Below are positions 16,484 to 41,300 of a DNA stretch of 48,782 bases, piece after piece (within the stretch, counting starts at the first letter, position 1; every line of letters starts with the position of its first letter). This DNA comes from a virus. Position numbers and translations under genes: made by a program. Location: positions 1 to 48,782 of the IMG/VR virus record IMGVR_UViG_3300021141_000014; one strand, written 5' to 3'. A model generated the notes under the pieces. The model saw only the letters and a program-made list of their open reading frames with translations. It was not told the DNA's origin and made no database searches.

Positions 16484-16511
16484 TTGACGCATCAAACAAC
16501 ATAACTATTTT
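16484..16511 (+). promoter_or_regulatory. Early promoter (sigma70-like)
   Basis: TTGACG at 16484-16489 and TATTTT at 16506-16511 with a 16-base spacer. It faces the early gene operon that starts at 16665, leaving an untranslated leader of about 150 bases with two stem-loops. The -35 is one base from consensus. This is the best promoter match I see in the window. Confidence 0.6.
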
Positions 16512-16606
16512 AAGGGACATCGAGACAACGCCGCCGCGAGGCTCCCACCGTCTCCGCTCTTTGACATCGTGAAACGCATGACACCCAACGGGGGCTCTGG
16601 TCCCCG

Positions 16607-16650
16607 CTGGGATCATCTCACCGCAGTCCGCTGCCGTGAGGTGATTTCAG
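16607..16650 (+). ncRNA. Stem-loop before the first early gene (related to the CGAGGAT motif)
   Basis: CTGGGATC (16607-16614) pairs with GATTTCAG (16643-16650), including G-T pairs at the same central position where the other copies have a mismatch. Inside is CTCAC-C-GCAG/CTGC-C-GTGAG. The outer stem ends two bases before AAGGAG, as in the 16793 and 18759 elements, but the CCCAGA/CGAGGAT internal loop is absent (two bases on each side). It may be a degenerate or simpler relative. Confidence 0.4.
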
Positions 16651-16664
16651 CAAGGAGAATGAAC

Positions 16665-16796
16665 ATGTCCACCTACACCCAAGAACAGGCCGACCGCGAT
16701 GTCTACGAAGAGTATCGCGCAGAGTGCCTCTACTTCGGCATCACGCCCAAGTCGTTCCGCGAATGGCTGACTGAAGACGAAGATGACGATCTCTGA
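16665..16796 (+). CDS. Small acidic early protein
   Basis: 43 residues from ATG at 16665, seven bases after AAGGAG; an ATG at 16659 is too close to the site. The protein (MSTYTQEQADRDVYEEYRAE then GITPKSFREWLTEDEDDDL) is acidic and helical. It is the first gene of the early operon. Small acidic first-transcribed proteins of phages often bind host enzymes, but no family is recognised here. Its stop codon lies inside the 5' stem of the next structured RNA. Confidence 0.6.
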   Translation: MSTYTQEQADRDVYEEYRAECLYFGITPKSFREWLTEDEDDDL

Positions 16797-16843
16797 CTTC
16801 CCCAGACTGTGGGCCTACGGGTCCACAGCGAGGATGAATTCAG
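16793..16843 (+). ncRNA. CGAGGAT-loop RNA element, copy 1
   Basis: Outer stem CTGACTTC (16793-16800) with GAATTCAG (16836-16843), one C-T mismatch. Internal loop CCCAGA (16801-16806) faces CGAGGAT (16829-16835). Distal hairpin CTGTGGGCC/GGTCCACAG with loop TACG. The 5' stem includes the stop codon of the gene before; AGGAG of the next gene follows eight bases after the 3' stem. Two further copies (17334, 18759) keep the loops while the distal hairpin sequence changes. Confidence 0.6.
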
Positions 16844-16858
16844 CACAGGAGAAAGTAC

Positions 16859-17116
16859 ATGAACACCAAGTTTGCAGACGCCGTCATCCCCCACATCACG
16901 CTGGCCAATGCGCTGGCTTGGGACGCCGACGATGAGAAGTTCCTCTGGGTCGTTTACAACGTCCTTGACCAGATCGGCTGGCCCACCACCGACGCAGCGG
17001 TCAACTGGATCGAGGATCGCTTTTACGAACTGATCGAGGACAACATCGAGCAGTGGGCAAACAGCCACGAAAGGGCGATGGTCGCAGCCACCAGAGGCTA
17101 CCACACCGATTTCTGA
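16859..17116 (+). CDS. Early hypothetical protein (85 aa)
   Basis: ATG at 16859 after AGGAG. An acidic, Trp-rich helical protein: MNTKFADAVIPHITLANALA, then DEKFLWVVYNVLDQIGWPTT and NWIEDRFYELIEDNIEQWAN. No cysteines, no catalytic motif. Not recognised. It is flanked by structured intergenic RNAs, a full element before and a 5' half (CTGATTTCCCCA) after its stop. Confidence 0.65.
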   Translation: MNTKFADAVIPHITLANALAWDADDEKFLWVVYNVLDQIGWPTTDAAVNWIEDRFYELIEDNIEQWANSHERAMVAATRGYHTDF

Positions 17117-17138
17117 TTTCCCCATAGGAGCAACCGAC

Positions 17139-17327
17139 ATGACCAAGAAACAAGCATATCTCCGCAGCCTCGCCATCCAGCCCACCGACTGGATCGAGGC
17201 CAGCGCATCCAGCCCATCCCCTCGCATGACGTGGATGCACACAGCGCTGCACAGGCTCGAACTGCGCCGCCGTGGACGCATCCAGTCGCATTACGCCGAC
17301 ATGGCCCAGCGTGAAGGCTGGCAGTGA
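17139..17327 (+). CDS. Early basic hypothetical protein (62 aa)
   Basis: ATG at 17139 after AGGAG with eight bases between. MTKKQAYLRSLAIQPTDWIE and HRLELRRRGRIQSHYADMAQ give a small basic helical protein with a possible DNA-binding character (two-helix, Arg-rich). No family recognised. Situated between two structured intergenic regions in the early operon. Confidence 0.6.
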   Translation: MTKKQAYLRSLAIQPTDWIEASASSPSPRMTWMHTALHRLELRRRGRIQSHYADMAQREGWQ

Positions 17328-17333
17328 TCGGCC

Positions 17334-17384
17334 CACTGACACCACCGGACGGCGGAGCGATCCGCCGCGAGGATGGCGCTAGTG
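17334..17384 (+). ncRNA. CGAGGAT-loop RNA element, copy 2
   Basis: Outer stem CACTGACACC (17334-17343) with GGCGCTAGTG (17375-17384), seven Watson-Crick pairs, one G-T and two A-C mismatches. Internal loop ACCGGA (17344-17349) faces CGAGGAT (17368-17374). Distal hairpin CGGCGGA/TCCGCCG with a GCGA tetraloop. Compared with copies 1 and 3 the outer and distal stems differ in sequence but keep pairing, while CGAGGAT is unchanged. AAGGAG follows seven bases later. Confidence 0.55.
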
Positions 17385-17402
17385 CCAACAAGGAGAAAGT
17401 AC

Positions 17403-17597
17403 ATGGCAAGACCAACCACCAAGGCAATCGAAGACCTGAAGAGCGAAGGCCTCTATTTCACCGCTGGCGCAATGCTGTTCCAGCTTGGCTATCCCCGCAA
17501 CTACGGTTGCCACTACGGGATGCGCTCAGACCTCGATCAATCTCGTGATGAGTTTTATCGCGGCTACGATGCCGCTGAAGCAGGAGCTACACGCTAA
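17403..17597 (+). CDS. Early hypothetical protein (64 aa)
   Basis: ATG at 17403 after AAGGAG. MARPTTKAIEDLKSEGLYFT, then GAMLFQLGYPRNYGCHYGMR and DEFYRGYDAAEAGATR. The pattern of a short helix, then aromatic/Gly-rich core, is not one I can assign. Its stop overlaps the start of the next small reading frame (TAATG). Confidence 0.6.
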   Translation: MARPTTKAIEDLKSEGLYFTAGAMLFQLGYPRNYGCHYGMRSDLDQSRDEFYRGYDAAEAGATR

Positions 17598-17695
17598 TGC
17601 CCTACCCACAGCCTAAGCACAGGCCGGTATCGCTGGCCCCATTGTTTTTTGCCGCCGTTTTTTGCGGGATCGGCATCCTCATCATCGGTAACTGA
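17597..17695 (+). CDS. Possible small membrane protein (32 aa)
   Basis: ATG at 17597 shares a base with the stop before it. The product begins MPYPQPKHRPVSLAPLFFAA and continues as one hydrophobic helix (VFCGIGILIIGN). Much of the hydrophobic stretch is encoded by a copy of the dispersed T-tract/CCGCCG repeat, so the frame could be an accident of that repeat. Coupling by the TAATG overlap favours translation. Confidence 0.4.
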   Translation: MPYPQPKHRPVSLAPLFFAAVFCGIGILIIGN

Positions 17696-17706
17696 AAGGA
17701 AGACAC

Positions 17707-17898
17707 ATGACCGACACGATTGCACGCCTCGACGATTTCACCGCCACGATGATCGCGGAGGGCGTCGAAGAAGCCACCTATGACCAACAAGTCGAAGCTT
17801 GGCAGTACCTGCACGACACCGGCTTGGCCTATCGCCTCCAAGGATGGTTTGGCCGCACCGCTCGATCCCTGATCGCTGAGGGGATCATCACCGAATAG
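17707..17898 (+). CDS. Early hypothetical protein (63 aa)
   Basis: ATG at 17707 after AAGGAAG. MTDTIARLDDFTATMIAEGV and EEATYDQQVEAWQYLHDTGL suggest a helical acidic protein; the end reads RLQGWFGRTARSLIAEGIIT. The G of its TAG stop is the first base of stem II of the hammerhead ribozyme that follows, so ribozyme cleavage would release this message 22 bases after the stop codon. Family not recognised. Confidence 0.65.
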   Translation: MTDTIARLDDFTATMIAEGVEEATYDQQVEAWQYLHDTGLAYRLQGWFGRTARSLIAEGIITE

Positions 17899-17952
17899 TC
17901 GAAACGCCCTTCGGGGCGTCTGCGAGGGGTGGCCACCCCGCACTGATGAGAC
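17898..17952 (+). ncRNA. Type II hammerhead ribozyme, copy 1
   Basis: Order of parts: stem II 5' strand GTC (17898-17900); GAAA; stem III CGCCC-TTCG-GGGCG; T and the cleavage-site C (17920); stem I from TGCG (17921) to CGCA (17939-17942) with a G/C-rich inner hairpin; core CTGATGA (17943-17949); stem II 3' strand GAC (17950-17952). Every conserved hammerhead core base is present. Cleavage is expected between 17920 and 17921. The element lies between two genes and AAGGAAG follows shortly after. Confidence 0.85.
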
Positions 17953-17976
17953 AGGCCAACCAAGGAAGGAAATACC

Positions 17977-18354
17977 ATGTCATTGAATTGGGACATCACG
18001 AACGTCACCGACAACGAGGCGATCTGCTTCTACCGCGACAGCGACGGAGATCGGTGCCTCAAACAGCAAACGCAGAACCTCCTGTTCCTGACGATGGTCG
18101 TGGGGATGAACTCGATCAACGAGCGCAACTACAAGGAGTTCTACACTCGAGTCGCCTTGTACGAACGGCTGCGCGGCGCTGTCATGACAGTGCTCAACGA
18201 TGAGGGTAAATGGGTCGACGATCCCTACACCCTCGAGGACATCCGCCAGCACATTGGTCTCTGGACCAACGCATCGAACGAGACGGCCACCGCATGGCGC
18301 AAGCGCATCCTCGGTAGCTGGGAGCACGACCTACTGATCGAACGCCTTCACTAA
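17977..18354 (+). CDS. Early hypothetical protein (125 aa)
   Basis: ATG at 17977 after GGAAGGAAATACC. The product starts MSLNWDITNVTDNEAICFYR; a middle helix region (TQNLLFLTMVVGMNSINERN; YKEFYTRVALYERLRGAVMT) and the end ATAWRKRILGSWEHDLLIER follow. It looks like a soluble alpha/beta protein of a phage-only family; not recognised. Ribozymes lie on both sides, so its message could be freed as a single-gene RNA. Confidence 0.7.
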   Translation: MSLNWDITNVTDNEAICFYRDSDGDRCLKQQTQNLLFLTMVVGMNSINERNYKEFYTRVALYERLRGAVMTVLNDEGKWVDDPYTLEDIRQHIGLWTNASNETATAWRKRILGSWEHDLLIERLH

Positions 18355-18410
18355 GTCGAAACGCCCCTCGGGGCGTCTGGCTGGGACTGACCGCCCACCA
18401 CTGATGAGAC
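18355..18410 (+). ncRNA. Type II hammerhead ribozyme, copy 2
   Basis: Starts on the base after a TAA stop. Parts: GTC (18355-18357), GAAA, stem III CGCCC-CTCG-GGGCG, T and cleavage-site C (18377), stem I TGG then bulged C then TGGG with loop ACTGACCG, closing with CCCA and CCA (to 18400), core CTGATGA (18401-18407), GAC (18408-18410). Stem I differs from copy 1 but remains paired. AGGAG follows nine bases later. Expected cut between 18377 and 18378. Confidence 0.85.
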
Positions 18411-18429
18411 AGGTCACAGGAGAATGCAC

Positions 18430-18762
18430 ATGGACGTAATTGAATTCGATCTCGACCGCTGGGCCACTAAGGGCGAAGCGACTGTCGCACGCAAACTGAT
18501 TCGCATCATCCTCGACAAGGGGTACGCCATCAGCGTCTTTGATGGCGAGGAATGGGTGGTCAAGGTCAGCACTGACCGCAAGGCAATCGTGCGAGCGATA
18601 GGATCGACCGGCGAAGACCTGATCCGCATCCGCGAGTTTGACAAGCATGTCGGCTCATTCTGGCTGGTCTACGGCAACGCAGATGACGGCAGCGAGCTGA
18701 TCGCCGATCACACCGACAACGAGCTCTGCAACGAAATCTGGAGCGAGCTGTTCCCAGACTGA
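18430..18762 (+). CDS. Early hypothetical protein (110 aa)
   Basis: ATG at 18430, seven bases after AGGAG; an upstream ATG at 18424 is too near. MDVIEFDLDRWATKGEATVA, then LIRIILDKGYAISVFDGEEW and VVKVSTDRKAIVRAIGSTGE, an alternating strand/helix protein with acidic end (NELCNEIWSELFPD). It resembles small phage proteins of unknown function. Its stop lies in the 5' stem of RNA element copy 3. Confidence 0.7.
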   Translation: MDVIEFDLDRWATKGEATVARKLIRIILDKGYAISVFDGEEWVVKVSTDRKAIVRAIGSTGEDLIRIREFDKHVGSFWLVYGNADDGSELIADHTDNELCNEIWSELFPD

Positions 18763-18811
18763 CTTCCCCAGAGGGCTGGGTCTCACGATCCGGCCCCGAG
18801 GATGAATTCAG
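18759..18811 (+). ncRNA. CGAGGAT-loop RNA element, copy 3
   Basis: Outer stem CTGACTTC (18759-18766) with GAATTCAG (18804-18811), identical to copy 1. Internal loop CCCAGA (18767-18772) faces CGAGGAT (18797-18803). The distal hairpin GGGCTGGGT/ATCCGGCCC, loop CTCACG, is unrelated in sequence to that of copy 1 yet pairs over nine positions. AAGGAG of the next gene starts two bases after the 3' stem, so the structure could also control ribosome access. Confidence 0.6.
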
Positions 18812-18825
18812 CAAGGAGAATGAAC

Positions 18826-19176
18826 ATGGAACGTCCCTTCGATTATGTCGGTCGCCACAGCGATATCTACAGGCCCGACGAAGATGACCTACGTCCTGCC
18901 AATGGCAGCACCTTTCACTATGGGTATGACGCCTGTGGTGGCAACTCTGTCACCGTCACTGGTTGGCTGGCTCCGGAAGAGTGGAGCGATGAGGACATCA
19001 GGGAGATCGTGTCCCTTAGATTTCCCGCCGAATTTTGCCAACACGAGCACGACTGCTGCGGCAAGTACTACCCAGAACAGGGGCAGGTCATCGGCATCGA
19101 ACACGATGTGCGGAACCAGTACGGCGACCGCTGCCACCTCGTGCTGGTCCGCATCCGGTACGTGCAGAACGTGTAA
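18826..19176 (+). CDS. Early hypothetical protein with His/Cys cluster (116 aa)
   Basis: ATG at 18826 after AAGGAG. MERPFDYVGRHSDIYRPDED leads to FHYGYDACGGNSVTVTGWLA and a possible metal-binding cluster, EFCQHEHDCCGKYYPEQGQV, near residue 68. The end is beta-prone (GDRCHLVLVRIRYVQNV). A zinc site is a reasonable guess from Cys-x-His-x-His-x2-Cys-Cys. No known family is recognised. Confidence 0.65.
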   Translation: MERPFDYVGRHSDIYRPDEDDLRPANGSTFHYGYDACGGNSVTVTGWLAPEEWSDEDIREIVSLRFPAEFCQHEHDCCGKYYPEQGQVIGIEHDVRNQYGDRCHLVLVRIRYVQNV

Positions 19177-19188
19177 GGGAGAGTCGAG

Positions 19189-19299
19189 ATGGAAGACGCA
19201 ATGTGGGAACCGCACAACGAGTGCGCAGACGATAACTGGTGCGGCCTCTGTGGATCGCACCACCACTGGCAAGACGAATGCCAAGACGAAGAGGAATAG
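19189..19299 (+). CDS. Tiny Cys/His-rich acidic protein (36 aa)
   Basis: ATG at 19189 after GGGAGAG. MEDAMWEPHNECADDNWCGL followed by CGSHHHWQDECQDEEE. Four Cys and four His in 36 residues (Cys12, Cys18, Cys21, Cys31; His24-26) suggest a small zinc-binding fold. Its TAG stop overlaps the start of hammerhead copy 3. Short, but ribosome site, composition and context support it. Confidence 0.55.
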   Translation: MEDAMWEPHNECADDNWCGLCGSHHHWQDECQDEEE

Positions 19300-19353
19300 T
19301 CGAAACGGGCTTCGGCCCGTCTGGCGGAGATTGCCACCCGCCACTGATGAGAC
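19299..19353 (+). ncRNA. Type II hammerhead ribozyme, copy 3
   Basis: Parts: GTC (19299-19301), GAAA, stem III CGGGC-TTCG-GCCCG, T and cleavage-site C (19321), stem I TGGCGG/CCGCCA with loop AGATTGCCAC (19322-19343), core CTGATGA (19344-19350), GAC (19351-19353). Stem III has swapped bases relative to copies 1 and 2 (CGGGC/GCCCG for CGCCC/GGGCG), a clear covariation. AGGAG follows six bases later. Expected cut between 19321 and 19322. Confidence 0.85.
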
Positions 19354-19371
19354 AGGCAAAGGAGAATAAGA

Positions 19372-19617
19372 ATGGATATTTCCAACAACGCACCCAGCGT
19401 GAAGGACATCCTCGCAGTGCCACTGGCCGAGGGCGTCCGATACAGGCTGGATGACGCCGACATCGTACGTGTCCGCGCACGCATCTACCAACTGAACCAG
19501 AACAACGCCGCAGGATGGCGCTGGCGCACGACGAAGATCGCTGCACGCACCAGATCGAAAAACCCCACGATCATCGCAAACCTTGTTCACACGCTGATCG
19601 TGTGGCGGATCAAGTAG
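19372..19617 (+). CDS. Basic early protein (81 aa)
   Basis: ATG at 19372 after AAGGAG. MDISNNAPSVKDILAVPLAE, then VRYRLDDADIVRVRARIYQL and GWRWRTTKIAARTRSKNPTI. Arg-rich helix region (IAARTR) suggests nucleic-acid binding; the middle could form a winged or HTH-like unit, but I cannot confirm it. It is the first gene after hammerhead copy 3. Confidence 0.6.
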   Translation: MDISNNAPSVKDILAVPLAEGVRYRLDDADIVRVRARIYQLNQNNAAGWRWRTTKIAARTRSKNPTIIANLVHTLIVWRIK

Positions 19618-19627
19618 GAGGCCGACA

Positions 19628-19825
19628 ATGCGGAAGTACATAACGATCAGCCTCGACTGTGAAGAAGGGGACGCCTCCCTCACGCCAGAGTCCGAGGCAC
19701 TTGTTGCGGAAATGGCAAGTCGTGGTGATTTGATGGACTGCGACCAACTCGATGACATCTTGCGCATCTTCGAAGGTGCGTGCGGCCTCGCTATGGTCCG
19801 CTTTGTCTCAAAAACCGCTCACTGA
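19628..19825 (+). CDS. Acidic early protein (65 aa)
   Basis: ATG at 19628, with AGGAGG upstream (stop-proximal). MRKYITISLDCEEGDASLTP and ESEALVAEMASRGDLMDCDQ give an acidic small protein ending GLAMVRFVSKTAH. The stop overlaps the next ATG (TGATG). Not recognised. Confidence 0.6.
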   Translation: MRKYITISLDCEEGDASLTPESEALVAEMASRGDLMDCDQLDDILRIFEGACGLAMVRFVSKTAH

Positions 19826-19983
19826 TGCAGTGGCGCGTAGTACTCATGGCGGACGGCAAAAGCTCTGTCCGCCATGTATCCGCCGAAAGTGCGGCAGCGG
19901 CTCGAGAGACTGCTGTCGCCAATTTCAAGAAAGAAACCGGCCTTGACGCAACTGTCGGCCACATCCTCCGAAACAGACGTTGA
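19825..19983 (+). CDS. Early hypothetical protein (52 aa)
   Basis: ATG at 19825, coupled to the gene before by TGATG. MQWRVVLMADGKSSVRHVSA then ESAAAARETAVANFKKETGL: a strand, a strand and one helix, then a basic end (ILRNRR). The opening resembles small phage proteins with a beta-beta-alpha unit (MADGK...VSAESAAAA), function unknown. Confidence 0.6.
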   Translation: MQWRVVLMADGKSSVRHVSAESAAAARETAVANFKKETGLDATVGHILRNRR

Positions 19984-19990
19984 TGCGTTT

Positions 19991-20007
19991 ATATGCTTGA
20001 CGCATAT
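19991..20007. promoter_or_regulatory. Palindrome ATATGC-TTGAC-GCATAT before ardC
   Basis: A perfect 6+6 inverted repeat whose 5-base spacer, with the next base, reads TTGACG, a -35-like box. No good -10 sits 16-18 bases downstream, so a promoter here is doubtful. The repeat is related to the one at 16437-16453. An operator reading is reasonable but untested. Confidence 0.35.
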
Positions 20008-20045
20008 GCGAGGGTTTATTAGGGAAAATATCGAAAGGATTCGAA

Positions 20046-20909
20046 ATGAAGCAGGATATTTACGAGAACGTCACCAACCGAGTGTTGGAAATGATGGAAA
20101 CGCATGGCACGAACTGGATCAACCCGTTCGCACGCAAGGGCAAGTCCCTTCGCCCCCACAACATCGCCAGCAAGAAAGCCTATCGCGGCATCAACGCGAT
20201 GATGCTGATGTGGTCGCCCTATGCCAGCCCCTCATGGGGAACCTTCAAGCAGTGGAACGAGCGAGGCTGCAAGGTGCGCAAGGGTGAGAAGTCCACGCCG
20301 ATCATCTACTGGCAGTTCATCGAGAAGGAAGACGAGAAGGGTAAGAAGGTGACGATCCCCTTCCTTCGCCAGTACTACATCTTCAACGTGGAACAGGTCG
20401 AGGGCGACTATGTAGATGCTCTACTGTCTTCCCCTACTGGTGGCGCGGATGAGATCGCTGCTGCTGAGGATTTTTTCCGCCAAATCCCTGCGGACGTTCG
20501 CCACAGTGACCAAGGCCGTGCCTACTACAGCCCAGTCACCGACCACATCCACATGCCGCACAAGGCCGTGTTCGAAGACACGCCGACCAGTTCCGCGACC
20601 GAGTGCTACTACAGCACCCTGTCCCATGAACTGACGCACTGGACCGGCCACAAGTCGCGGCTGGATCGCCTCACTGAGGATCGCTTCGGCGGCGAAGACT
20701 ATGCGCGGGAAGAACTGGTCGCAGAGATCGGTGCTGCCCTGCTCTGCGCCCACCTCGAGATCAGCGCTGCACCGCGCCCTGATCACGCCCAGTACCTCAA
20801 CGGCTGGATGCAGAAGCTGTCTGATCACAAGCGCGAGTTCGTGTCGGCGGCATCGGCAGCGGCCAAGGCGGTCGACCACATAATTGAACTATCAGGAAAG
20901 GAAGCCTAA
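20046..20909 (+). CDS. ArdC-like antirestriction protein
   Basis: 287 residues from ATG at 20046 (GAAAGGA upstream). The N-terminal ArdC ssDNA-binding part is clear: MKQDIYENVTNRVLEMMETH, WINPFARKGKSLRPHN, KKAYRGINAMMLMW and GTFKQWNERGCKVRKGEKST. The C-terminal part is a zincin-like domain with SHELTHWTGHKSRLDR (HELTH at 194-198) and a likely third ligand in EELVAEIGAALLC. Known relatives protect incoming plasmid or phage DNA from restriction. Position in the early operon fits that use. Confidence 0.88.
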   Translation: MKQDIYENVTNRVLEMMETHGTNWINPFARKGKSLRPHNIASKKAYRGINAMMLMWSPYASPSWGTFKQWNERGCKVRKGEKSTPIIYWQFIEKEDEKGKKVTIPFLRQYYIFNVEQVEGDYVDALLSSPTGGADEIAAAEDFFRQIPADVRHSDQGRAYYSPVTDHIHMPHKAVFEDTPTSSATECYYSTLSHELTHWTGHKSRLDRLTEDRFGGEDYAREELVAEIGAALLCAHLEISAAPRPDHAQYLNGWMQKLSDHKREFVSAASAAAKAVDHIIELSGKEA

Positions 20910-21012
20910 TGATCATCGGTACAGCCCCGCGCAGGAACAAGCTGCGCATCTCTTCTGACAGTGTCTGGCCCCTACGCAGTGCGTCGGGGCGGACCTTCGC
21001 CGAGGAAAAACA

Positions 21013-21096
21013 ATGCACGACCTCTTCATCGGCTTGCTCATCTGCATCGCCGCTCTCTACATCGCAATCCGATTCACCCCACGCTGTGACGAATAG
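21013..21096 (+). CDS. Small membrane protein (27 aa)
   Basis: ATG at 21013, five bases after GAGGA. MHDLFIGLLICIAALYIAIR is one membrane helix followed by FTPRCDE. The preceding 100 bases contain a strong hairpin (GCCCC-T-ACGC/GCGT-C-GGGGC at 20968-20990) and look like a leader. The next gene's AAAGGA follows the stop directly. Function unknown; small one-helix early proteins of phages often target membrane partners. Confidence 0.55.
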   Translation: MHDLFIGLLICIAALYIAIRFTPRCDE

Positions 21097-21108
21097 AAAG
21101 GACTGATC

Positions 21109-21366
21109 GTGTTCGTTCGATACATCCCCAAGAAGAGCGGAGAAGCGCCGCCACAATGGACTGCAACGACGCCTTGGTCTTTGTGGCCGAATGAACCCAA
21201 GGTCCAAGCGGTGGTGCCTTCATGGATCGCTGGCTCTGCATACGGCGTACCCATAACCGCAGTCGACGCCGAATGGTTCAAGGACATCATCGTTCAGGTT
21301 CGCGGCCTTCCTATCGAGAAGGCTGTCCGCATCTTGATGGAAAGCTTTCCTGATGAGCAAGCGTAG
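21109..21366 (+). CDS. Early hypothetical protein (85 aa)
   Basis: GTG at 21109 with AAAGGA six bases upstream. MFVRYIPKKSGEAPPQWTAT, then AVVPSWIAGSAYGVPITAVD and FKDIIVQVRGLPIEKAVRIL. The C-terminal helix and the central Trp/Gly segment do not match a family I know. It overlaps the next gene by 14 bases. Confidence 0.6.
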   Translation: MFVRYIPKKSGEAPPQWTATTPWSLWPNEPKVQAVVPSWIAGSAYGVPITAVDAEWFKDIIVQVRGLPIEKAVRILMESFPDEQA

Positions 21367-21622
21367 CTACAGGCTGGAGCCTCTGCCCCACTACGCACCA
21401 TCTCGCAGCACTGGCGCGTCCCACGCACTGCACCTTGGCGGTCGTGGTCAGTGCTGCTCACACGAGATCGAGTACTTCGCGATGGCGTGCGCCGACAACG
21501 ACTTCATGGAGCTTCTTGGCAAGCACTGGGTCGCGACCGGCGAGAGCCTTTTGTCATCGCACAAGAAGCCTACCGAAACTCTGATCGCCGAAATCGACGC
21601 AGCACTGGAGAAGCAACCATGA
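21353..21622 (+). CDS. Early hypothetical protein (89 aa)
   Basis: ATG at 21353 within the end of the gene before. MSKRSYRLEPLPHYAPSRST has a basic, Pro/His-rich start; then CCSHEIEYFAMACADNDFME and a helical end. Cys/His content is notable (GQCCSHEI), but spacing does not point to a standard zinc finger. Ends in an ATGA overlap with the next short frame. Confidence 0.55.
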   Translation: MSKRSYRLEPLPHYAPSRSTGASHALHLGGRGQCCSHEIEYFAMACADNDFMELLGKHWVATGESLLSSHKKPTETLIAEIDAALEKQP

Positions 21623-21696
21623 CCCTGCGCCAATTCCTTTTTGACAACTTCGGCTGGGATATTTACGACTGGGATCCAGACGACATTCGATTTTAA
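21619..21696 (+). CDS. Tiny acidic protein (25 aa)
   Basis: ATG at 21619, eight bases after GGAG, overlapping the stop before it by ATGA. The product MTLRQFLFDNFGWDIYDWDP then DDIRF is acidic and aromatic. Very short; kept because of the ribosome site and coupled start. No function proposed. Confidence 0.4.
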   Translation: MTLRQFLFDNFGWDIYDWDPDDIRF

Positions 21697-21987
21697 GAAC
21701 ACCCCTCACTCGGCTCCTTTCGATCTCGACAACCACGGCGGGATAGACGGCTAGGCAGCGGAAGCATCAAACACCTCTGAGTGAAGGGGACCATATGGTA
21801 CTAAGGTGTGAATGCCTAGCAACGTGGTAACCAGCGACGATTGATCGCAGCGGCGAACAGAAAAACAACAGCCGCATCTCTCTGAAAATACAGACCTATT
21901 TATTTCAACTCGCGTCTCTGCGTTAGTTGAAGCAACCAGTCTTTGGCCGTAAAGCCGGAGGTCCACCCCCATGTAATGGAGCTTTGA
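21697..21987 (+). promoter_or_regulatory. Long untranslated leader of the ribonucleotide reductase gene
   Basis: 291 bases without a credible gene. Besides the structured element at 21750-21820 there is a hairpin GCGGC/GCCGC at about 21851-21876, GTTG/CAAC near 21927-21936 and GGC/GCC near 21946-21957, then GGAG six bases before the nrdJ ATG. A T/A-rich segment (21885-21905) may hold a promoter, but no clear -35/-10 pair is seen. No B12-box consensus is visible. Confidence 0.5.
21750..21820 (+). ncRNA. Structured leader RNA upstream of nrdJ
   Basis: GCTAGGCA (21750-21757) pairs with TGCCTAGC (21813-21820). After an asymmetric internal loop (13 bases against 3), ACACCT (21771-21776) pairs with AGGTGT (21804-21809). 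The apical part contains the palindrome CCATATGG. Two perfectly paired stems with a large one-sided loop suggest a riboswitch-like or protein-binding leader. A candidate RNA class linked to nrdJ genes has been described by others; whether this matches it cannot be decided here. Confidence 0.5.
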
Positions 21988-23928
21988 ATGCAACTTCCTA
22001 CTGACTACCAGTCCTACATCCACAAATCACGCTACGCCCGATTCCTCGACAAAGAAGGTCGGCGTGAACACTGGGACGAAACCGTCTCTCGCTACTTCGA
22101 CTTCTTCGAGGAAGAGCTGGAGACACACCACGGACACAAGGTGTCTGCTGGCCTTCGCAGCGAGCTCGAGGATGCGGTCCTCAGTCTCGCCGTCATGCCT
22201 TCGATGCGTGCTCTCATGACTGCGGGTGAAGCCCTGCGTCGCGAGAATGTCGCTGGCTACAACTGCAGCTACCTGCCCATCGACCGGCCCAAGGCGTTCG
22301 CCGAGGCGCTCTACGTCCTGATGTGTGGCACTGGCGTCGGCTTCTCCGTCGAGCGACAGGAGATCAACAAGCTACCGACCGTACCAGAAAGCTTCGACCG
22401 CACCGCTTTCGACGTGATCGTCGGCGACAGCAAGCTTGGCTGGGCCGAGGCCTATCACACGCTTCTGACCTGCCTCTATGCAGGGACGATTCCGAACATC
22501 GACTACAGCCAGATTCGCGCAGCCGGTGAGCGCCTCAAGGTCTTCGGTGGCCGTGCATCTGGTCCTGAACCTTTGCGCGACCTGTTCGAATTCACGATCC
22601 GCACGATGCGCAATGCTGCCGGTCGCAAGCTGAACAGCCTCGAGGTTCACGAGATCGTCTGCAAGATCGGCGAGATCGTGGTGGTTGGCGGCGTGCGTCG
22701 ATCCGCTGAGATCAGCCTGTCGAACCTGTCCGACCAGCGTATGCGCGATGCAAAGTCTGGCAACTGGTGGATGGACAAGCCCTACCTTGCGCTGGCCAAC
22801 AACTCCGCTGCCTATACGGAGAAGCCCGAGGTCGGCCAGTTCATGGACGAATGGTCAGCACTGTATCGCTCACGCTCAGGCGAGCGCGGTATCTTCAACC
22901 GTGAAGGTGCGATCAACAAGATCCTCCGCCTTGGTCGCCGTGATCACCGTTATGACTTCGGCACCAACCCCTGCGGCGAGATCGTGCTGCGCCCTCGTGG
23001 CTTCTGCAACTTGACGGAAGCTGTGGTGCGGGAGCATGACGGCCTCGGTGATCTCAAGGAGAAGGTGCGCCTCGCCTCGATCCTTGGCACTTGGCAGTCC
23101 ACCCTCACCCGCTTTAATTTCATCGAGCCTGAGTGGCGTCGCAACGCCGACGAGGAGCGCCTTCTGGGCGTGTCTCTCACCGGCATCTACGACAACGCAC
23201 TGATGCGCGGTGACAACGGCCTCGACAAGCTGGCATCGACGCTCGAGAAGCTGAAGGCATCAGCCATCAAGGCAAACCGCCTCGAGGCTCACGACATCGG
23301 GATCAATCCTTCTGTCGCAGTAACGACGGTCAAGCCCTCTGGCACGGTGTCTCAGTTGGTGAACAGCCCGAGCGGTATCCATCAGGGCCATGCCCAGTAC
23401 TACATCCGGCGCGTGACTGGGGACAACAAGGATCCCATCACCACCTTCATGTCGGATGCTGGCATTCCCAACGAGCCGCACGCAGCGAAGCCTCAGCAGA
23501 TGACGGTCTTCTCCTTCCCTGTGAAGCTGGGAGACGGCACCGTCACACGCGATGAGGTGACTGCCCTGCAGCATCTCGAGCTGGTCCGCACCTACAACAC
23601 GAACTGGTCAGAGCACGCTGTGTCCTGCACCATCAGTGTGAAGGAAAACGAATGGCCCAGCGTTGGTGGGTGGGTGTTCGATCACTTCGACGACATCTGT
23701 GGCCTGTCGTTCCTGCCGCACTTCGAAGGCGATAGCTCGTACACGCAGATGCCGTACGAAACCATCGGCGCGAAGGACTATGCAGCAATGCTGGCCCGTA
23801 TGCCTGAGCACATCGACTGGTCGGACCTCGCCTTCTACGAGAAGGGTATCGACACAGTCACCGGCACCCGCGAGTTTGCCTGCGTTGGCAACACCTGCGA
23901 GATCGTCGAGTCCACTGAATCGCTTTAA
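21988..23928 (+). CDS. nrdJ: Ribonucleotide reductase, adenosylcobalamin-dependent (class II)
   Basis: 646 residues from ATG at 21988 with GGAG six bases upstream. Monomeric class II type: GYNCSYLP with Cys93 as the first active-site cysteine, active-site NPCGEI (Asn327, Cys329, Glu331), VKPSGTVSQLVNSPSGIH near 450-467 as substrate/phosphate region, and a C-terminal redox pair Cys632/Cys637 in EFACVGNTCEIVE. It makes deoxynucleotides from ribonucleotides with coenzyme B12 and needs no oxygen. It needs host cobalamin. Slightly shorter than the Lactobacillus enzyme. It supplies precursors for phage DNA synthesis. Confidence 0.92.
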   Translation: MQLPTDYQSYIHKSRYARFLDKEGRREHWDETVSRYFDFFEEELETHHGHKVSAGLRSELEDAVLSLAVMPSMRALMTAGEALRRENVAGYNCSYLPIDRPKAFAEALYVLMCGTGVGFSVERQEINKLPTVPESFDRTAFDVIVGDSKLGWAEAYHTLLTCLYAGTIPNIDYSQIRAAGERLKVFGGRASGPEPLRDLFEFTIRTMRNAAGRKLNSLEVHEIVCKIGEIVVVGGVRRSAEISLSNLSDQRMRDAKSGNWWMDKPYLALANNSAAYTEKPEVGQFMDEWSALYRSRSGERGIFNREGAINKILRLGRRDHRYDFGTNPCGEIVLRPRGFCNLTEAVVREHDGLGDLKEKVRLASILGTWQSTLTRFNFIEPEWRRNADEERLLGVSLTGIYDNALMRGDNGLDKLASTLEKLKASAIKANRLEAHDIGINPSVAVTTVKPSGTVSQLVNSPSGIHQGHAQYYIRRVTGDNKDPITTFMSDAGIPNEPHAAKPQQMTVFSFPVKLGDGTVTRDEVTALQHLELVRTYNTNWSEHAVSCTISVKENEWPSVGGWVFDHFDDICGLSFLPHFEGDSSYTQMPYETIGAKDYAAMLARMPEHIDWSDLAFYEKGIDTVTGTREFACVGNTCEIVESTESL

Positions 23929-23932
23929 CCGT

Positions 23933-23952
23933 GAGGGGGCTTCGGCCCCCTC
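23933..23952 (+). terminator. GC-rich hairpin after nrdJ
   Basis: GAGGGGGC and GCCCCCTC pair over eight bases around a TTCG tetraloop, five bases after the nrdJ stop. No T run follows, so it is more likely a 3'-end stabiliser or pause site than a full terminator. The next gene starts 18 bases later. Confidence 0.45.
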
Positions 23953-23969
23953 CCAACAGGGAAGTTGGT

Positions 23970-24260
23970 ATGTTCGTATCTGATTTAATTAAAGAGACAT
24001 GCGAAGTCTTTGACGTCTCACGGCGCGACCTCATGGGTCAGTATAGGTTCCCCTTCATAGTTCGCGCACGCTTCGCCCTGTACAAGGCTCTGCGCATGAG
24101 GGGTATGTCACTGCCCAAGATTGCTGGGGCCACTGGCCGTCACCACACAACAGTGATGAACGGCCTCGAGAAGGCTGACCTTATGATGAAGAACTGTCCT
24201 GACTACAGACAGAAGGTGGAGCGCATCGCTTCACTTTCGCGCCAGAATTTTGAATTCTGA
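23970..24260 (+). CDS. DnaA domain IV-like DNA-binding protein
   Basis: 96 residues from ATG at 23970 after AGGGA. The sequence matches the DnaA-box-binding helix-turn-helix: CEVFDVSRRDLMGQYRFPFI, then VRARFALYKALRMRGMSLPK and IAGATGRHHTTVMNGLEKAD. The HHTTVMNG segment equals the DnaA signature (HTTV) that reads the DnaA box. The AAA+ part is missing, so it may compete with or redirect host DnaA, or mark the phage origin. A near-consensus box (TTGTGGATAA) lies at 35101-35110. Its 3' end overlaps the convergent nuclease gene by 30 bases. Confidence 0.8.
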   Translation: MFVSDLIKETCEVFDVSRRDLMGQYRFPFIVRARFALYKALRMRGMSLPKIAGATGRHHTTVMNGLEKADLMMKNCPDYRQKVERIASLSRQNFEF

Positions 24261-24647
24261 GATCGGGATCTCAACCATAGGCTCTTGATCCTCCCAATCC
24301 CCACGCTTTGTTGTTCCACCGAACACGATGTCTATGGGGGTTGGGATGTTCACGTATCCCACGCAGTCCTGCCACTCCACGATCAGCAGTGAGATGATCG
24401 ACGTGTCCCGACACAGGGCAGCGAGGTTCAAGTACTTGTGCAGGGACACTTGGTAGGTGGGGTAGGTGTGGATCGGGTTGCCCCGCGACTTGAGCTCAGC
24501 CCATGCCATGACCTTCTTGTCACGCAGCAGGGCGAAGTCCACAGAGTAGCGACGCGGTAGCTTCACCACGCCGACACCCCACTTCTCTGCCAGCGCAGAG
24601 ATTACAACACGCTCATTGGCTAGTGTGTGTTCGTTCTCATAGATCAA
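24231..24647 (-). CDS. PD-(D/E)XK nuclease-like protein
   Basis: 138 residues from TTG at 24647 (TTGA overlap with the stop before). After LIYENEHTLANERVVISALA it shows the restriction-fold core: RRYSVDFALLRDKKVMAWAE followed by LKSRGNPIHTYP, with Asp in VDFALL and Glu-x-Lys in AELK. A role in recombination or DNA repair is expected. The last 30 bases overlap the convergent DnaA-like gene. The earlier in-frame ATG at 24713 is unlikely because it runs through the neighbouring gene. Confidence 0.65.
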   Translation of the reverse strand: MIYENEHTLANERVVISALAEKWGVGVVKLPRRYSVDFALLRDKKVMAWAELKSRGNPIHTYPTYQVSLHKYLNLAALCRDTSIISLLIVEWQDCVGYVNIPTPIDIVFGGTTKRGDWEDQEPMVEIPISEFKILARK

Positions 24648-24952
24648 CGGACCATCTTTCTCTCTTCCTTCCACATCGACAGCACGATGCACTCGACTAG
24701 CGACCGAGCCCAAGTCGGCTCACAATCGAGCGGAATATCGTCGATAGCTGCCCTGCGAATCTCTTTAGTAGGTAGGTGATATATGCGCTGCGCAAGGTAA
24801 TACACCATGTGATCTCGGACCAGAGCGCGGAAGTTTTCCGGCACGTTTCTTTCGATCCACTGCATTCGTTCGTCATGCGTTTCACCCTTCGATGCTTGCT
24901 CGGCCCAGACTAGAGATTGCGGTCGTGTTAGTTTTTTTCCCGCCGCCTTCAC
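24644..24952 (-). CDS. Hypothetical protein (102 aa)
   Basis: GTG at 24952 overlaps the stop before by GTGA. MKAAGKKLTRPQSLVWAEQA, ERMQWIERNVPENFRALVRD and HMVYYLAQRIYHLPTKEIRR form a mostly helical basic protein. Located between two nuclease-like genes in the replication block. No family recognised; loader or clamp roles cannot be excluded. Confidence 0.6.
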   Translation of the reverse strand: MKAAGKKLTRPQSLVWAEQASKGETHDERMQWIERNVPENFRALVRDHMVYYLAQRIYHLPTKEIRRAAIDDIPLDCEPTWARSLVECIVLSMWKEERKMVR

Positions 24953-25254
24953 TGCATCAACTCGAGCAAGGTCTTCAGCGGGATCACCGCCACAGACTCA
25001 TGTCGATCTGCACGCAGGATCAGACCTGCATTGTCGCCCAGTGCCTCGAGCATCCACGCTGGGAGCTCCTTCCTGCGCTTGGCCTCAAACACCCAAGGCT
25101 TGTCAGAGAATGTCGGTGTGATCTCGACATCCCCCTTCGCGTAGCTGGTTGCACCAGACAGAGGCACGCGCTGGGCCACGAGGCCATACTCCTTGGCAAG
25201 GTTCACGAGCTCGCGCTCGAACACAGCGCCTTTCGTTCTCGACATCTTTCCCAT
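24949..25254 (-). CDS. Holliday-junction-resolvase-like PD-(D/E)XK protein
   Basis: 101 residues from ATG at 25254, six bases after AAGGG. SRTKGAVFERELVNLAKEYG, LSGATSYAKGDVEITPTF and PWVFEAKRRKELPAWMLEAL give the order Glu (in FERELV), Gly-Asp-Val-Glu, Glu-Ala-Lys, which is the archaeal-Hjc/VSR-like nuclease pattern used by phage resolvases. It should cut branched DNA. It lies in a tight run of minus-strand genes with 4-base overlaps. Confidence 0.72.
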   Translation of the reverse strand: MGKMSRTKGAVFERELVNLAKEYGLVAQRVPLSGATSYAKGDVEITPTFSDKPWVFEAKRRKELPAWMLEALGDNAGLILRADRHESVAVIPLKTLLELMQ

Positions 25255-25256
25255 AG

Positions 25257-25502
25257 TCAGCCCTTTGCAAATACGAGTTTCAGTTCCTGCCAGATCGTTC
25301 GACCGTCGAAGATCCTGCGCAGGATGTAGCCCCTAGCTACAGAGACCACCGTAAAGATGCCGGTGATGATCAGGTTCTGGGACCAAGTGACGGGGATGTT
25401 CATCGCTGCAGCCACGAAGTACCAAGTGATCAGCGAGATCACGAACCCGACAGAGGTGTTGGTGACAGCCTCCATGAAGCTGTCCATCTTGTGCTGCTTC
25501 AC
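25257..25502 (-). CDS. Small membrane protein (DUF7220-like)
   Basis: 81 residues from GTG at 25502 (GTGA overlap). Two hydrophobic segments: residues about 17-35 (SVGFVISLITWYFVAAAM) and 43-56 (LIITGIFTVVSVAR), then YILRRIF. The ITGIFTVVSVARGYILRRIF segment is the hallmark of a phage membrane family (DUF7220), function unknown. Confidence 0.7.
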   Translation of the reverse strand: MKQHKMDSFMEAVTNTSVGFVISLITWYFVAAAMNIPVTWSQNLIITGIFTVVSVARGYILRRIFDGRTIWQELKLVFAKG

Positions 25503-35332: not shown

Positions 35333-35362
35333 CCCCGACCCTAGTACGGTCGGGGTTTTTTT
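35333..35362. terminator. Intrinsic terminator, convergent
   Basis: CCCCGACC and GGTCGGGG pair over eight bases around loop CTAGTAC, followed on the plus strand by seven T. On the minus strand the stem is followed by CAGGGTTTTTATTT, so it may act both ways. It ends the plus-strand integrase operon and abuts the stop codon of the giant minus-strand gene. Confidence 0.8.
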
Positions 35363-38300
35363 ATTGTTCAGCCTCTGCCACTAGGTCGTTGAAGTTCTTC
35401 ATTGCCGCAGTGATCTCTTCGTCCTTGGCGGTAACCTCCGACCTTGGGGCGTCACCCAAGATCAGCTCACGACGCTCGCGGCGAAGGTCGCTGACGATGC
35501 GGTAGTTGGATCCGACATAATCAACGAGGCTTGCCTTCGGGTTCTCCTCGTAGATTTCAGAGGTGTCAGCACCCGCTTCCTCCCGAGCCTTGATCGTGGT
35601 CTTGAGCTCGTTGATCTCTTTGACGTTCTCGTAGAACTTGCCGCCCTCAGCCGTCTTGCCGCTGGTTTCGCCATAGAAGCGTCGCAGGAAGGCGACCTCG
35701 TTGGCCTCAACGGTATCCCCAGCCAAGCCCTTCTCAAGCGTTCCTGCACTGCGGTAGAGGAACTGGAGAGGGGGCAAGGCCTGCTCGACGAAGAACTTAA
35801 CCTCCTCCGGAGTCGGAGAGAAGGTTCCGCGCTCGTATTCATCGCCGCCACTGACGGCGTTAATGACCTCAGCAACCTTGCTGTACATCGAGTACATGAC
35901 GGTGGTGTCGCCTCGAGCGCGGCTCATGCCGGTGGTCGGGTTCAGGTCGTTAAAGTCGTCGTTGTAGATACGACGACCCAGACCGTCCTCGTTCTGCCAG
36001 TACTGGACGAACATGTCGAAGACTGATGGTGAGACGAACTCAATGAACCCAGCACCGTAGGCGATTGGGTTGACGGAGTTGATCGCAACCTTGGCCGTCC
36101 CGCCGAGGAACTGACCGAAGGTCAACTGACCACGAGCCGCCTCTACCATGCGCCGACCGAAGGCGGGGAACATGTTGTAGAAGTAAGGCATCGGGATGGC
36201 GATGTACTTCTCGCTATCGGAGAACAGGCCAAGCGGGATGATGAAGGCGTGATCCTTCACCCACTCAGGCACGTCGTCCTCATCGTAGCCAGCAGCAGCC
36301 AGCAGCAAGCCTTGAATGACACCAAGGCCAATGCCGCCGATAAGTATCTTCTTACCAGACTTGCCCAACATGGTCTTCATGTTGCGGTCGGTCGATGCAA
36401 TGCTGGCGTTGGCAAAGCCGTAGAGAGCATTGATCTCGCGAGTCCACTGACCGCGCTGGTTGAAGTTTACCGTAATGCTCTTAGCAACCTCAGCGGCCTG
36501 CGCATCGGTCATGCCGTTGTCCAGACCAGCCTTGAAGGCGGAAAGGCGAGTGGCGTTCTCGAGCGCATCGTTCCATGCCGTCACCCAATTAATAACCGAC
36601 TGGGGAGCGCTTGTCTTACCAGCCTGCAGTTGCTTAATTGCCTGCTGAAGCTCTTTCTCGAGCTCTTCAGGGTTACGGTCAAAGTCCTTGAAGAACGACT
36701 CGCGAATGGCAGTTCGACCGCCAGCCTTCTCGAATCGATCAAACAGATCTGCCACTTCCTCAGATCCTTGCGGAATCGGCTCGCCGCTGTCGGTAGCGCG
36801 GATCACTCGAATGAGCTTCTTGGCATACTTGACAGACCGACCCATAACCTTGAACTGCTCGCCATCAAGTGGCGTGCTGGACAGGTTGAGCATCACGCCC
36901 CACATGTCGCGAGCAAAGTTGACGGGGCCAAACTCCGGCATGTACTGGGTGCGCAACTGCGACCAGATGCGGGTGATTGATCCCATGTTTTCGATGAACG
37001 CACCAGCCGCACCATTCAATGTGGGAAGATCGTCGTTCTTCAGGATCGACGCGATGTCCGCCGCCATCTTCTCGTCGGGATTGAAGACGATGTACTTGTC
37101 AGTGCCGTCGACGCGAGTGGCGAAGACATTCGGCTGACGCTTGAAGCCGGTGTCGACCATCGTCTCCACAGTGCCAGTGCGTTTGTTGTACGCCCTCTTC
37201 GTCGGCGACTTGAAGATCTCCTCAGCGAGATCCGGATCCATATTCATTCCAGCCAACTGCTTGCGCACCTGCTCAAGCGTCGCCTTGGAAGGATCGATGA
37301 CCATCCAGAAGGCAGGATCCTGATTGTCGAGCGCGGCCTGAAACACAGTGTTGCCAAGGCGGTTGGCTTCAGCGCGATTGATGGCAGCTTCGCGCTGCAG
37401 GATGATGTTGGCGATGATGTTGCTGACAGGCTTGCTCGAGCCAATTGCTGACTTGAGCGACGAACCTTCGACGCTTGCGCCTCGAGTGCCAAGAGCGTGT
37501 CCGCCGTCAACGCCTTCGCGGAACAGCGGCACATAGAACTTGTAGGTGTTGCGCAGGTTCTGGATCGTTTCCGCCGACTCGACGCCGGAGTCCTGCAGGA
37601 TCTGCAGAGTACCGCCAGTCATAGCGTCAACCTTCTTCGCCACAGCTTCCAGTCGAGCACGCTTTTCTGGCGACAGCGAAACCATGTACGAACGAGCTGC
37701 AGCATCGTTGATACCGGAGCCGCCATCAGGGAATGCATCATTGCGGCTGCGGATCACCCCGTTGCGCTCTTCAGCGTGGCGGTTGTGCAGGTAGGTTTCG
37801 ACCTCGTCCATAGTAAGGCCGCGCATTGTCAGCTCGCGAAGCAGCGGCTTCAGCTCATTGAGGTGGAACTCTTGCGTCTGATACGCAGCCCTGCCCCCCA
37901 TCAACTGCTCAGCGCGGTCAATGTTGGTTTTGTCGTTATAGAAGTCGTCGATGTTCTTGACGAGCTGCTTGATCGGTCGAGCCCTGTTCACCAGTCGCTC
38001 GTACCAAAGGGTAAGTTTCGGGTGCTTCGCCACAGTTGGGTCGACGCCAAGGATGGCAGGGCCAGTCCTGAACTTGGGCGCGTTGCGGCGGACGGTCTGC
38101 GGCTGGCGCAAATCAACAGGCCCAGTTCGGTTCTGACCAGTGGGTCGACGGCCAGAGAAGCGCACGCCTTCACCGTCCATCATCTCGCGGATGCGGTCGG
38201 CATTCTCGTTGTTGATCGGCACAGCTTCGTCGATGACCGTCTCGGTGTCGCCGTTGCTGAAGGGATCGTTGCGGCCAGCACGCTGCGGAGCGAGTTGAGC

Positions 38301-41300
38301 ACCAGCGAGATCCTCGATCTGAGCCGCTCCGTTCTGGCGGACAAGAATGACAGGGATCTGGTCGATGCCAGCCGCCTTGAATGCAGCCATACGGTGACGG
38401 CCTTCATGCCCCATTACGCGGCGAGGCTGCTCCTTGCCGGATGCCATGTAAGGATCCGCTATCTCGAGGAACAGCGGCTGGCTTACCCGACGCAGCTCGT
38501 CGATGTTAAGCTCGCGAGCGCGGGTCTTCGTGGGATCCATCGTGGCCAGACGATCACGACCGTCCTTCGACAGAGTCAGGCCGAGGAACTGGTCGGGCGA
38601 CATGAACGTCATCCAACCCTTGGACTTCTTGTCGTCGCGTGGGTCGGTGTAGTCCTTGATTATCTGCTCGGTGCGCTCCGGCGTGTAGGCAGCGCGGCCT
38701 GTGCGCCCAGAGTACTGGACGCCAGCCATTCTTTTTTGAGCGTTGAGTCGGTCGTTCTTGCTGAGACCGAGGTTCTCTAGCTGCTGGTCTGAGAGTCCGG
38801 CAATTTCTTCGACAACCGCCCGAGCGCGGGATGCGAGAGGTGCTCCAGCGCGAGCTCCTTCAGCCCCTCCAGCTCGCTCACTGACGGCGGTGGCCCCGCC
38901 TTCTCGAGACGAGTTGCGATTAGTGACATCAAATTCATCCGTTGCGGCCTCGACATTTGCTCGAGCTCTTCCCGTGAGCAAACCTTCAATGCCGCTTTGG
39001 AGATATCTGTCGAGGACACCGTTTCTTTCTTCATCCGTTCCGGTCCACTTCATGATGACCAACGGCGGGTAGCCATCGGTCTTCGGGTTATATCCAGACG
39101 AACTGTCCTGCCAGTATTTTACTGCGTCCGCCAGCTTTTGCTTTGAATAATATTCGGGGGCAAAGGGAACCTCCGCCACCTTTGTAAAACCAAAGACCTC
39201 ATACAGCGCGGGGAGGAAGCCGTCTGGGAACTTCTTACTCTTAACGGCGAAGCAGTCAAGGACGGTCGCACCCTCCTCAATTGCCTTCAACATAACGGCG
39301 GGACCAGCGATGCCGCGAGCGCCCTGCTCGTTATTGATGACGGCGGTTACCATAACCTCGTCTTTCCCGACCATCGGGATGTCTATGCCATAGTCTTCGG
39401 CGTACTGCGGATCGCCCTTCTTCAGAGCAAAAAAGATCTGGCCGTCCTGTCCAAGCTGGAAGACGCGCATCTTCTCAGCCTTCACGTCGGCAGTAACGTC
39501 CTTCGCGGTGTACTCGTTAAGCACCGCCTTCGCTGGCGAGTTGTTGATGGCGTCAACAAACTCTTGGATGCTGACCCCACCCTTGTTCTTTGCCTGATCA
39601 GACGTCCGCCAGTTGGACGCCGCCATGTCGCTGGCCAGACGCGCCTGACGGGCGCTGTCGATGTTCGGCGTAGAAAGGTCACCGATCCTGTCGACAAGAT
39701 CCTGCGTGACCTCAACAATGGGCAACGACTGCTGGAATTCGTAGCGAGCCGTCTCTGGGGTTGCCTTTTTGCCACGAGCCGCTGTCTTACTGTTCGACTC
39801 CTTGATGAAGTCCTGCCAAAGCAACTCATAGCTGACCGGCGTCTCGAGGCGACCAACAACCCGTCCTTTAATGCCGAGCGGAAAGTCGGGATGTGCCTGT
39901 GTTCCATCCTTGCCAAGCGACACCATGCCATCGTCAATAACTTCAACCACAAGCACGCCATCACCCCAGCGGTGACCAGCCATTGAAGGCTCTCTGGTGG
40001 CGTCGAGGATCTGCTTCATTGATGGAGCGCCAAGCTCGAGAGCAGCTTTGCTTTCGAGGATGCTCATGATGCGTTTACGGGCATCGAAGCTGATGCGGTG
40101 GATGTAAGCGTCCAGCGCCTCGACATCGCTGAAGCTAGGGAACTCGCTTAGATACTTTGCGATGCGGGTGTCTGCCTCCTTGGCCGACCGGATCATATCA
40201 GCGAGCTTGTCCGAAGCGTCGCCGCTAATGCGACCATCGCGAGCATATGCTTCCAGTGTAGCGAAGTAGGAGTTATTAACCGTCGTGTTGGACTTGTGCA
40301 TGTCTGCACTGCCCATCACGATCATCATGTAGTTCGCCCCTTCCTTGACCTTCTTCATCTTCTTGGTCAGGACGGCTCCACCACGATTGGCCCACGCCAC
40401 CATAGCGTCGATGTTCGATTGGCGCAGGGGGAAGTTCGGCCCACCAAGCAGCGGGACAGCTACTGTTTGCGAGGAGTCGATTCCGGTATACAGCGCCGCT
40501 GCTGCAGTGCGATCAGAGATCGTCGGAAACAGCTTCTTGCCGATAAGTTCCTTGAGGGTGATTACAGGAATCTGCTCGCTCGACGCCAGTTCATCTATGG
40601 TTGAAACGTCAACGATCTCACCACCAACATCGGCGATGTCTTCTTTAAGGCTCTCGATTGCGCTATCGAGCCCTTTCTCCGGATTGTATCGGCGAGCCGA
40701 ATACCGGACGCTATCGCCATCAGCAAGAGGAGCTGGCCCCTCGTAGTCGTACGATCCAGTGCGGAAGCCGTCGAAGATGTCGGCGATTGATACAACGCCA
40801 TCACGATTCAGCAGCCTGCGGTACTCTCTGCGCAGGTCGCTGAGGAAATCGACAAAGCGAATGAAGCTGGCCTTGAGCCCCTTCATTGAAGTGCCACGAT
40901 CCTTTGCATCGACCAAAGCGCCAAACGCAACAGCCTGCGCTTCATCAAGAGCAAGGGGCGTGTCGCCAAAGTTGGCGACAAGGTCGTCGTAGACACTGCG
41001 CTCGCCATCGAGAGTGATGGTCTTCAGCTTGCGAACGATGCTCGGGTCGAGATCAGCAATCCGCATCCCGTCGCGGAATGTTTCATTAATGGTGTTGAAG
41101 CCATCGGGATCCTCGACGCGCAGGATGTCCTGAATGACGTGGAATGCTTCGTGCGCCGCGTTCTCGCGGGAGATCTCCAAGAGGCTGTCGCTGAGAGACA
41201 TCGTGATCAGGCCACGGAAACCGTTCTGGCTGATCTCGTATGCACGATAGGATCCGCTCGCCTCTGATCCCAGCTCAATTCCGCTTGCCGCTGCAGATCG

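Follow-up and report, generated by a model that had tools for sequence, protein, structure and literature searches.

The DNA analysed here is IMG/VR record IMGVR_UViG_3300021141_000014, positions 1–48,782 (hereafter referred to as the window, meaning this whole stretch of 48,782 nucleotides). It contains genes for a major head protein, a portal, a terminase, a primase/helicase, a ribonucleotide reductase, a RecE-like exonuclease and an integrase, and on the basis of this gene set its source is a tailed and probably temperate phage. The large terminase displays only about 34% identity to those of the nearest named phages, including Roseobacter phage CRP-7, which likewise has one type II hammerhead. 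Three elements, well supported by their sequences as type II hammerhead ribozymes, are found within a run of small + strand genes, all on a single strand and within 1.5 kb. The upstream genes end at 17898, 18354 and 19299, and the genes following the elements start at 17977, 18424 and 19372, respectively. The features of this region are:

17707–17898, + strand: gene before element 1, 63 aa, DUF7417/phrog_3908; its TAG stop shares one base with the ribozyme
17898–17958 (core 17898–17952), + strand: element 1, supported by RF02276 (58.1 bits), pairing counts and the pseudoknot
17977–18354, + strand: single gene between elements 1 and 2, 125 aa, no family found; its TAA adjoins element 2
18355–18416 (core 18355–18410), + strand: element 2, supported by RF02276 (37.6 bits) and pairing counts
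18424–18762, + strand: first gene after element 2, 112 aa, phrog_22565, unknown function
18826–19176, + strand: second gene between elements 2 and 3, 116 aa, no family found
19189–19299, + strand: third gene between elements 2 and 3, a Cys/His-rich ORF of 36 aa for which a Pfam search gave no family; its TAG stop shares one base with element 3
19299–19359 (core 19299–19353), + strand: element 3, supported by RF02276 (45.3 bits) and pairing counts
19372–19617, + strand: gene after element 3, 81 aa, no family found

This gene run is plausibly an early operon, because its genes are small and of unknown function, an antirestriction gene of the ArdC type accompanies them, and the run is divergent from the head and packaging genes. 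Scans for promoters and terminators gave results at chance level. The antirestriction gene (ArdcN plus MPTase-PolyVal, 20046–20909) lies downstream of the ribozymes. One gap in the same operon (18763–18825) is without a hammerhead and contains a 10-pair GC-rich hairpin (z −1.74) with no Rfam match, which could be a processing site cut by a protein. Elsewhere in the window, a 3050-aa ORF on the − strand (35361–44513) has a large polyvalent protein domain (LPD38), and its product is probably a giant virion protein injected into the host.

Identity and structure of the three elements

The original prediction, made from the sequence alone, had read the elements as type II hammerheads and named a covariance-model search as a means of checking this assignment. 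In an all-Rfam search of the window, all three exceeded the gathering cut-off of RF02276 (Hammerhead_II; 37 bits), with + strand matches at 17897–17960 (58.1 bits), 18354–18418 (37.6 bits, barely above the cut-off) and 19298–19361 (45.3 bits). The same search of the whole window yielded no other family over threshold and no further Hammerhead_II, and a looser RNA-family search of positions 16500–25500 gave no further credible match. An independent descriptor found exactly these three elements in the window and had no match in 8.6 million shuffled strand-bases, which rules out a chance match.

All three elements share the core GUC-GAAA ... UC / CUGAUGA-GAC in type II order, with stem II open and stems I and III closed by loops. 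The predicted succession of parts (GTC-GAAA, stem III, T and C at the cut site, stem I, CTGATGA and GAC) was thus found in each element, and the putative cut sites fall where they had been expected, at 17920/17921, 18377/18378 and 19321/19322. Position H17 is a C in all three, as it is in 144 of 146 related elements, and the A15.1-U16.1 pair is always present. In element 1, stem II is formed by GUC (17898–17900) and GAC (17950–17952), and stem III by 17905–17909 and 17914–17918, with a UUCG loop. Stem III has five base pairs plus A15.1-U16.1, and it covaries as claimed, with two C-G to G-C swaps (element 3 has CGGGC/GCCCG); stem I also behaves as described, its sequence varying between elements while its pairing is kept. 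The UUCG-type loop attributed to stem III is present in elements 1 and 3, but the loop of element 2 is CUCG.

Each element also forms a 5-bp pseudoknot, overlooked in the original prediction, between loop I and bases beginning one nucleotide past stem II: UGGCC (17930–17934) with GGCCA (17954–17958) in element 1, UGACC (18388–18392) with GGUCA (18412–18416) in element 2, and UUGCC (19331–19335) with GGCAA (19355–19359) in element 3, the last being followed immediately by AGGAG. Such pseudoknots are critical for fast cutting (Perreault et al. 2011, PMC3088659). With the pseudoknot included, 17 of 17 pairs are kept in all three copies (51/51 cells). Five pairs, distributed over stem III, stem I and the pseudoknot (two of them in the pseudoknot), have changes on both sides, and stem II is invariant among the three copies. 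In the three-way alignment, only 2 of 500 shuffles matched this level of pairing and covariation, and pairing fell to 29–39% when the partners were shifted by 1–3 columns. The folding energies, calculated with the pseudoknot ignored, were ordinary with respect to shuffled sequences (z −0.65 to −1.25).

The pseudoknot is a recurrent feature of viral type II hammerheads: one of at least 5 bp was detected in 62 of 146 viral elements, versus 8.5 on average and 18 at most when the tails were shuffled. Among the viral elements lacking a pseudoknot of at least 4 bp, 45 of 49 have a fourth stem II pair. The viral loci (L001–L120) contain two type II classes, one with a 3-bp stem II and a pseudoknot and the other with a 4-bp stem II (GGUC/GACC), the latter mostly without a pseudoknot and with a short stem I loop.

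Placement between genes and arrays in other phages

The elements begin at the stop codon of the preceding gene, as first proposed: in the TAG codons at 17896–17898 and 19297–19299, the final G is also the first base of GTC, and the TAA at 18352–18354 abuts element 2. At the other end, the cores terminate where the original prediction had placed them, a few bases before the next Shine-Dalgarno sequence, but when the pseudoknot is counted the elements extend 6 nt further, to 17958, 18416 and 19359, at or near that sequence. The distance from the end of the pseudoknot to the ATG is 18, 7 and 12 nt for elements 1, 2 and 3, respectively.

Placement was measured over more than 250 elements in total from viral and genome contigs, collected by pattern scans with at least 120 matching stretches in viral contigs and at least 118 in bacterial and archaeal genomes. 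Among the matches listed, 99 of 142 viral elements (70%) start within −4..+1 of the upstream stop codon, versus 1.8% at random positions and 4 of 136 in the antisense control; for the genome contigs, the corresponding figures are 44 of 127 elements and 1.7% at random, again among the matches listed. These fractions are probably lower bounds, because the count was based on ORFs of at least 40 codons, a threshold that leaves out small genes like the 36-aa one ahead of element 3. Downstream, a start codon supported by a Shine-Dalgarno sequence was found within 60 nt for 121 of 144 viral elements (21% in the control), at a median of 24 nt after GAC; most elements lie some 20 nt ahead of the start codon. 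Likewise, 23 of the 29 elements examined in annotated named phages end 9–20 nt before the next annotated start. For pseudoknot elements with a start found, the 3′ end of the pseudoknot lies within 20 nt of the start codon in 59% of cases and within 5 nt of the Shine-Dalgarno sequence in 42%. An A before GUC is conserved in the pseudoknot class (147/200). A tight fit of stop codon, ribozyme, Shine-Dalgarno sequence and start codon is, therefore, a general habit among phages.

Arrays of up to 8 type II hammerheads were present in the viral contigs compared, and the pattern scan listed up to seven matches in one stretch. The three Streptomyces phages counted whole, VieEnRose, Thestral and Puginator, had 10, 11 and 10 matches, respectively, at E ≤ 0.001, not all of them over the family cut-off, and the Rhodobacter phages RcSimone-Hastad and RcRudolph have two type II hammerheads each. 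In the cultured Arquatrovirinae VieEnRose, Thestral, Puginator, Alvy, Celia, Tefunt, Pablito and Janus (L244, L245, L253, L258–L265), the arrays occupy one genome arm, and Thestral has two elements head to tail within one gap. The distance to the next start in the Streptomyces phages is narrow (mostly 9–20 nt), and the upstream gap extends from −1 to 45 nt and beyond, often being 15–45 nt. A literature search covering few subscription journals found no paper on these Streptomyces-phage arrays.

A search for orthologous elements in relatives yielded one near-identical contig only (L124/L266/L273); it has the same three elements and thus adds no variation. No ribozyme was found near a homologue (L267, 53% identical) of the gene that follows element 2, or near weaker relatives, so element 2 is not required for its downstream gene.

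Possible roles and relation to known hammerheads

We consider it likely that the three pseudoknotted type II hammerheads serve as processing sites built into a single polycistronic transcript of the phage. Once RNA polymerase had passed a gap, the element would fold and cut itself once. With the cut after C17, the upstream message would keep its stop codon and end 22–23 nt past it in the stem III hairpin, which would carry a 2′,3′-cyclic phosphate. The downstream message would begin with a 5′-OH on the stem I hairpin, and its leader would close with a Shine-Dalgarno sequence of its own. In this way, the operon would be split into units, each of one gene or a few, translated and decaying independently, and the message ends should resist 5′-monophosphate-dependent and 3′-exonucleolytic decay. 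From the chemistry of the hammerhead family, self-cleavage is expected here, as are these end groups and cut sites, and message stability and the uncoupling of genes are the presumed benefits. The single-gene messages originally predicted would arise between elements 1 and 2, which enclose one gene (17977–18354), but not between elements 2 and 3, which enclose three (18424–18762, 18826–19176 and 19189–19299). Several points count against processing: 4 of 18 consensus hammerheads were inactive in vitro, the other 14 being active (Perreault 2011, PMC3088659), element 2 barely passes the Rfam cut-off, the folding-energy z-scores are ordinary, and no ribozyme was found near a homologue of a downstream gene. 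A role in tRNA processing, like that of gut-phage theta ribozymes (PMC10879173), was ruled out, the window having no tRNA gene.

The squeezing of each element between two ribosome sites would also be compatible with cutting gated by ribosomes, in which the RNA cuts only when the flanking ribosome sites are free and cutting reports low translation rather than being constitutive. Given the usual ribosome footprint sizes, a terminating ribosome on the stop codon would cover GUC-GAAA, and a 30S subunit on the Shine-Dalgarno sequence would cover the pseudoknot strand and stem II. The 70% of listed viral elements starting at the stop codon, the proximity of the pseudoknot to the start codon and Shine-Dalgarno sequence, and the short distances from pseudoknot to ATG in the window all agree with gating. 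Nevertheless, phage genes are packed anyway, so that genome economy by itself would bring stop codon and element together. TAG and TAA are also convenient as stops given the conserved A ahead of GUC, the upstream gap in Streptomyces phages is often 15–45 nt, and fast cutting could precede the arrival of a ribosome. As a compact genome and a conserved A would produce the same placement, placement alone is no proof of gating, which we regard as unlikely; we give no better chance to its extension, according to which type II hammerheads are a phage-wide, protein-free switch from polycistronic to separate messages when translation is low.

The narrow spacing to the next start in the named Streptomyces phages, beside an upstream gap of −1 to more than 45 nt, would suit an element acting mainly on the leader of the downstream gene, with the upstream 3′ end incidental, as would the halovirus HF1/HF2 element located 13 nt before an early helicase start (Perreault 2011, PMC3088659). 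The upstream fit is tight too in the wider viral set, and a comparison of homologous upstream and downstream genes, biased in that the loci were chosen for carrying ribozymes, revealed no clear difference as to which gene the ribozyme travels with and favoured neither side; we regard a pure leader function as quite improbable. The presence of elements beside many unrelated genes in mosaic phages might even indicate boundary repeats, either inert or promoting recombination, which spread as DNA but have no activity as RNA. However, the stems and pseudoknots change in compensating ways around a fixed catalytic core and only one locus among those compared has elements on both strands, which argues for selection on RNA and renders such repeats very improbable.

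The processing reading, which we prefer, has precedents. A series of three hammerheads in one operon had been thought new in the original prediction, but was reported earlier by Perreault et al. (2011, PMC3088659), who described prophages in which successive hammerheads flank single genes or short gene blocks, an Agrobacterium tumefaciens array of three that was cleaved in vivo in E. coli, and hammerheads near ardA genes. The type II elements of RF02276 and that study have the same part order, core, short stem II, loop I-tail pseudoknot and clustering between (pro)phage genes; here, the phage and sequences are new, with no difference in kind. With three on one strand within 1.5 kb, in a record containing capsid, terminase and integrase genes, the elements are clustered hammerheads in the sense of Perreault 2011, and they are a new example of the kind described in that year. 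As in the A. tumefaciens array, three lie in series along a short gene block with an antirestriction gene nearby, but here that gene is of the ArdC type (20046–20909) and does not directly follow an element. The HHphage hammerhead of haloviruses HF1 and HF2 likewise directly precedes an early gene's start codon, and the early transcript has a 5′ end within 3 nt of the cut site (PMC3088659); this hammerhead differs in being a single element of an archaeal virus, with a variant core and a mapped transcript end. The VieEnRose, Thestral and Puginator arrays similarly place several type II hammerheads among small same-strand genes, shortly before the next start, but with 10–11 elements per genome, in actinobacterial phages, and often with a longer upstream gap.

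The role of hammerheads in prokaryotes is an open question according to a review (Molecules 2017, PMC6155905), and the three elements add one case to the question of why self-cleaving ribozymes are present between phage genes. The placement rule (stop codon, followed by ribozyme, Shine-Dalgarno sequence and start codon) is a more useful result than the elements themselves and may be a new generalisation, since the phrase “stop codon” does not occur in Perreault 2011 (PMC3088659). The arrays have named cultured carriers, the Streptomyces Arquatrovirinae (10–11 elements) and the Rhodobacter phages (two), so ribozyme function, and cutting during infection, can be tested there.
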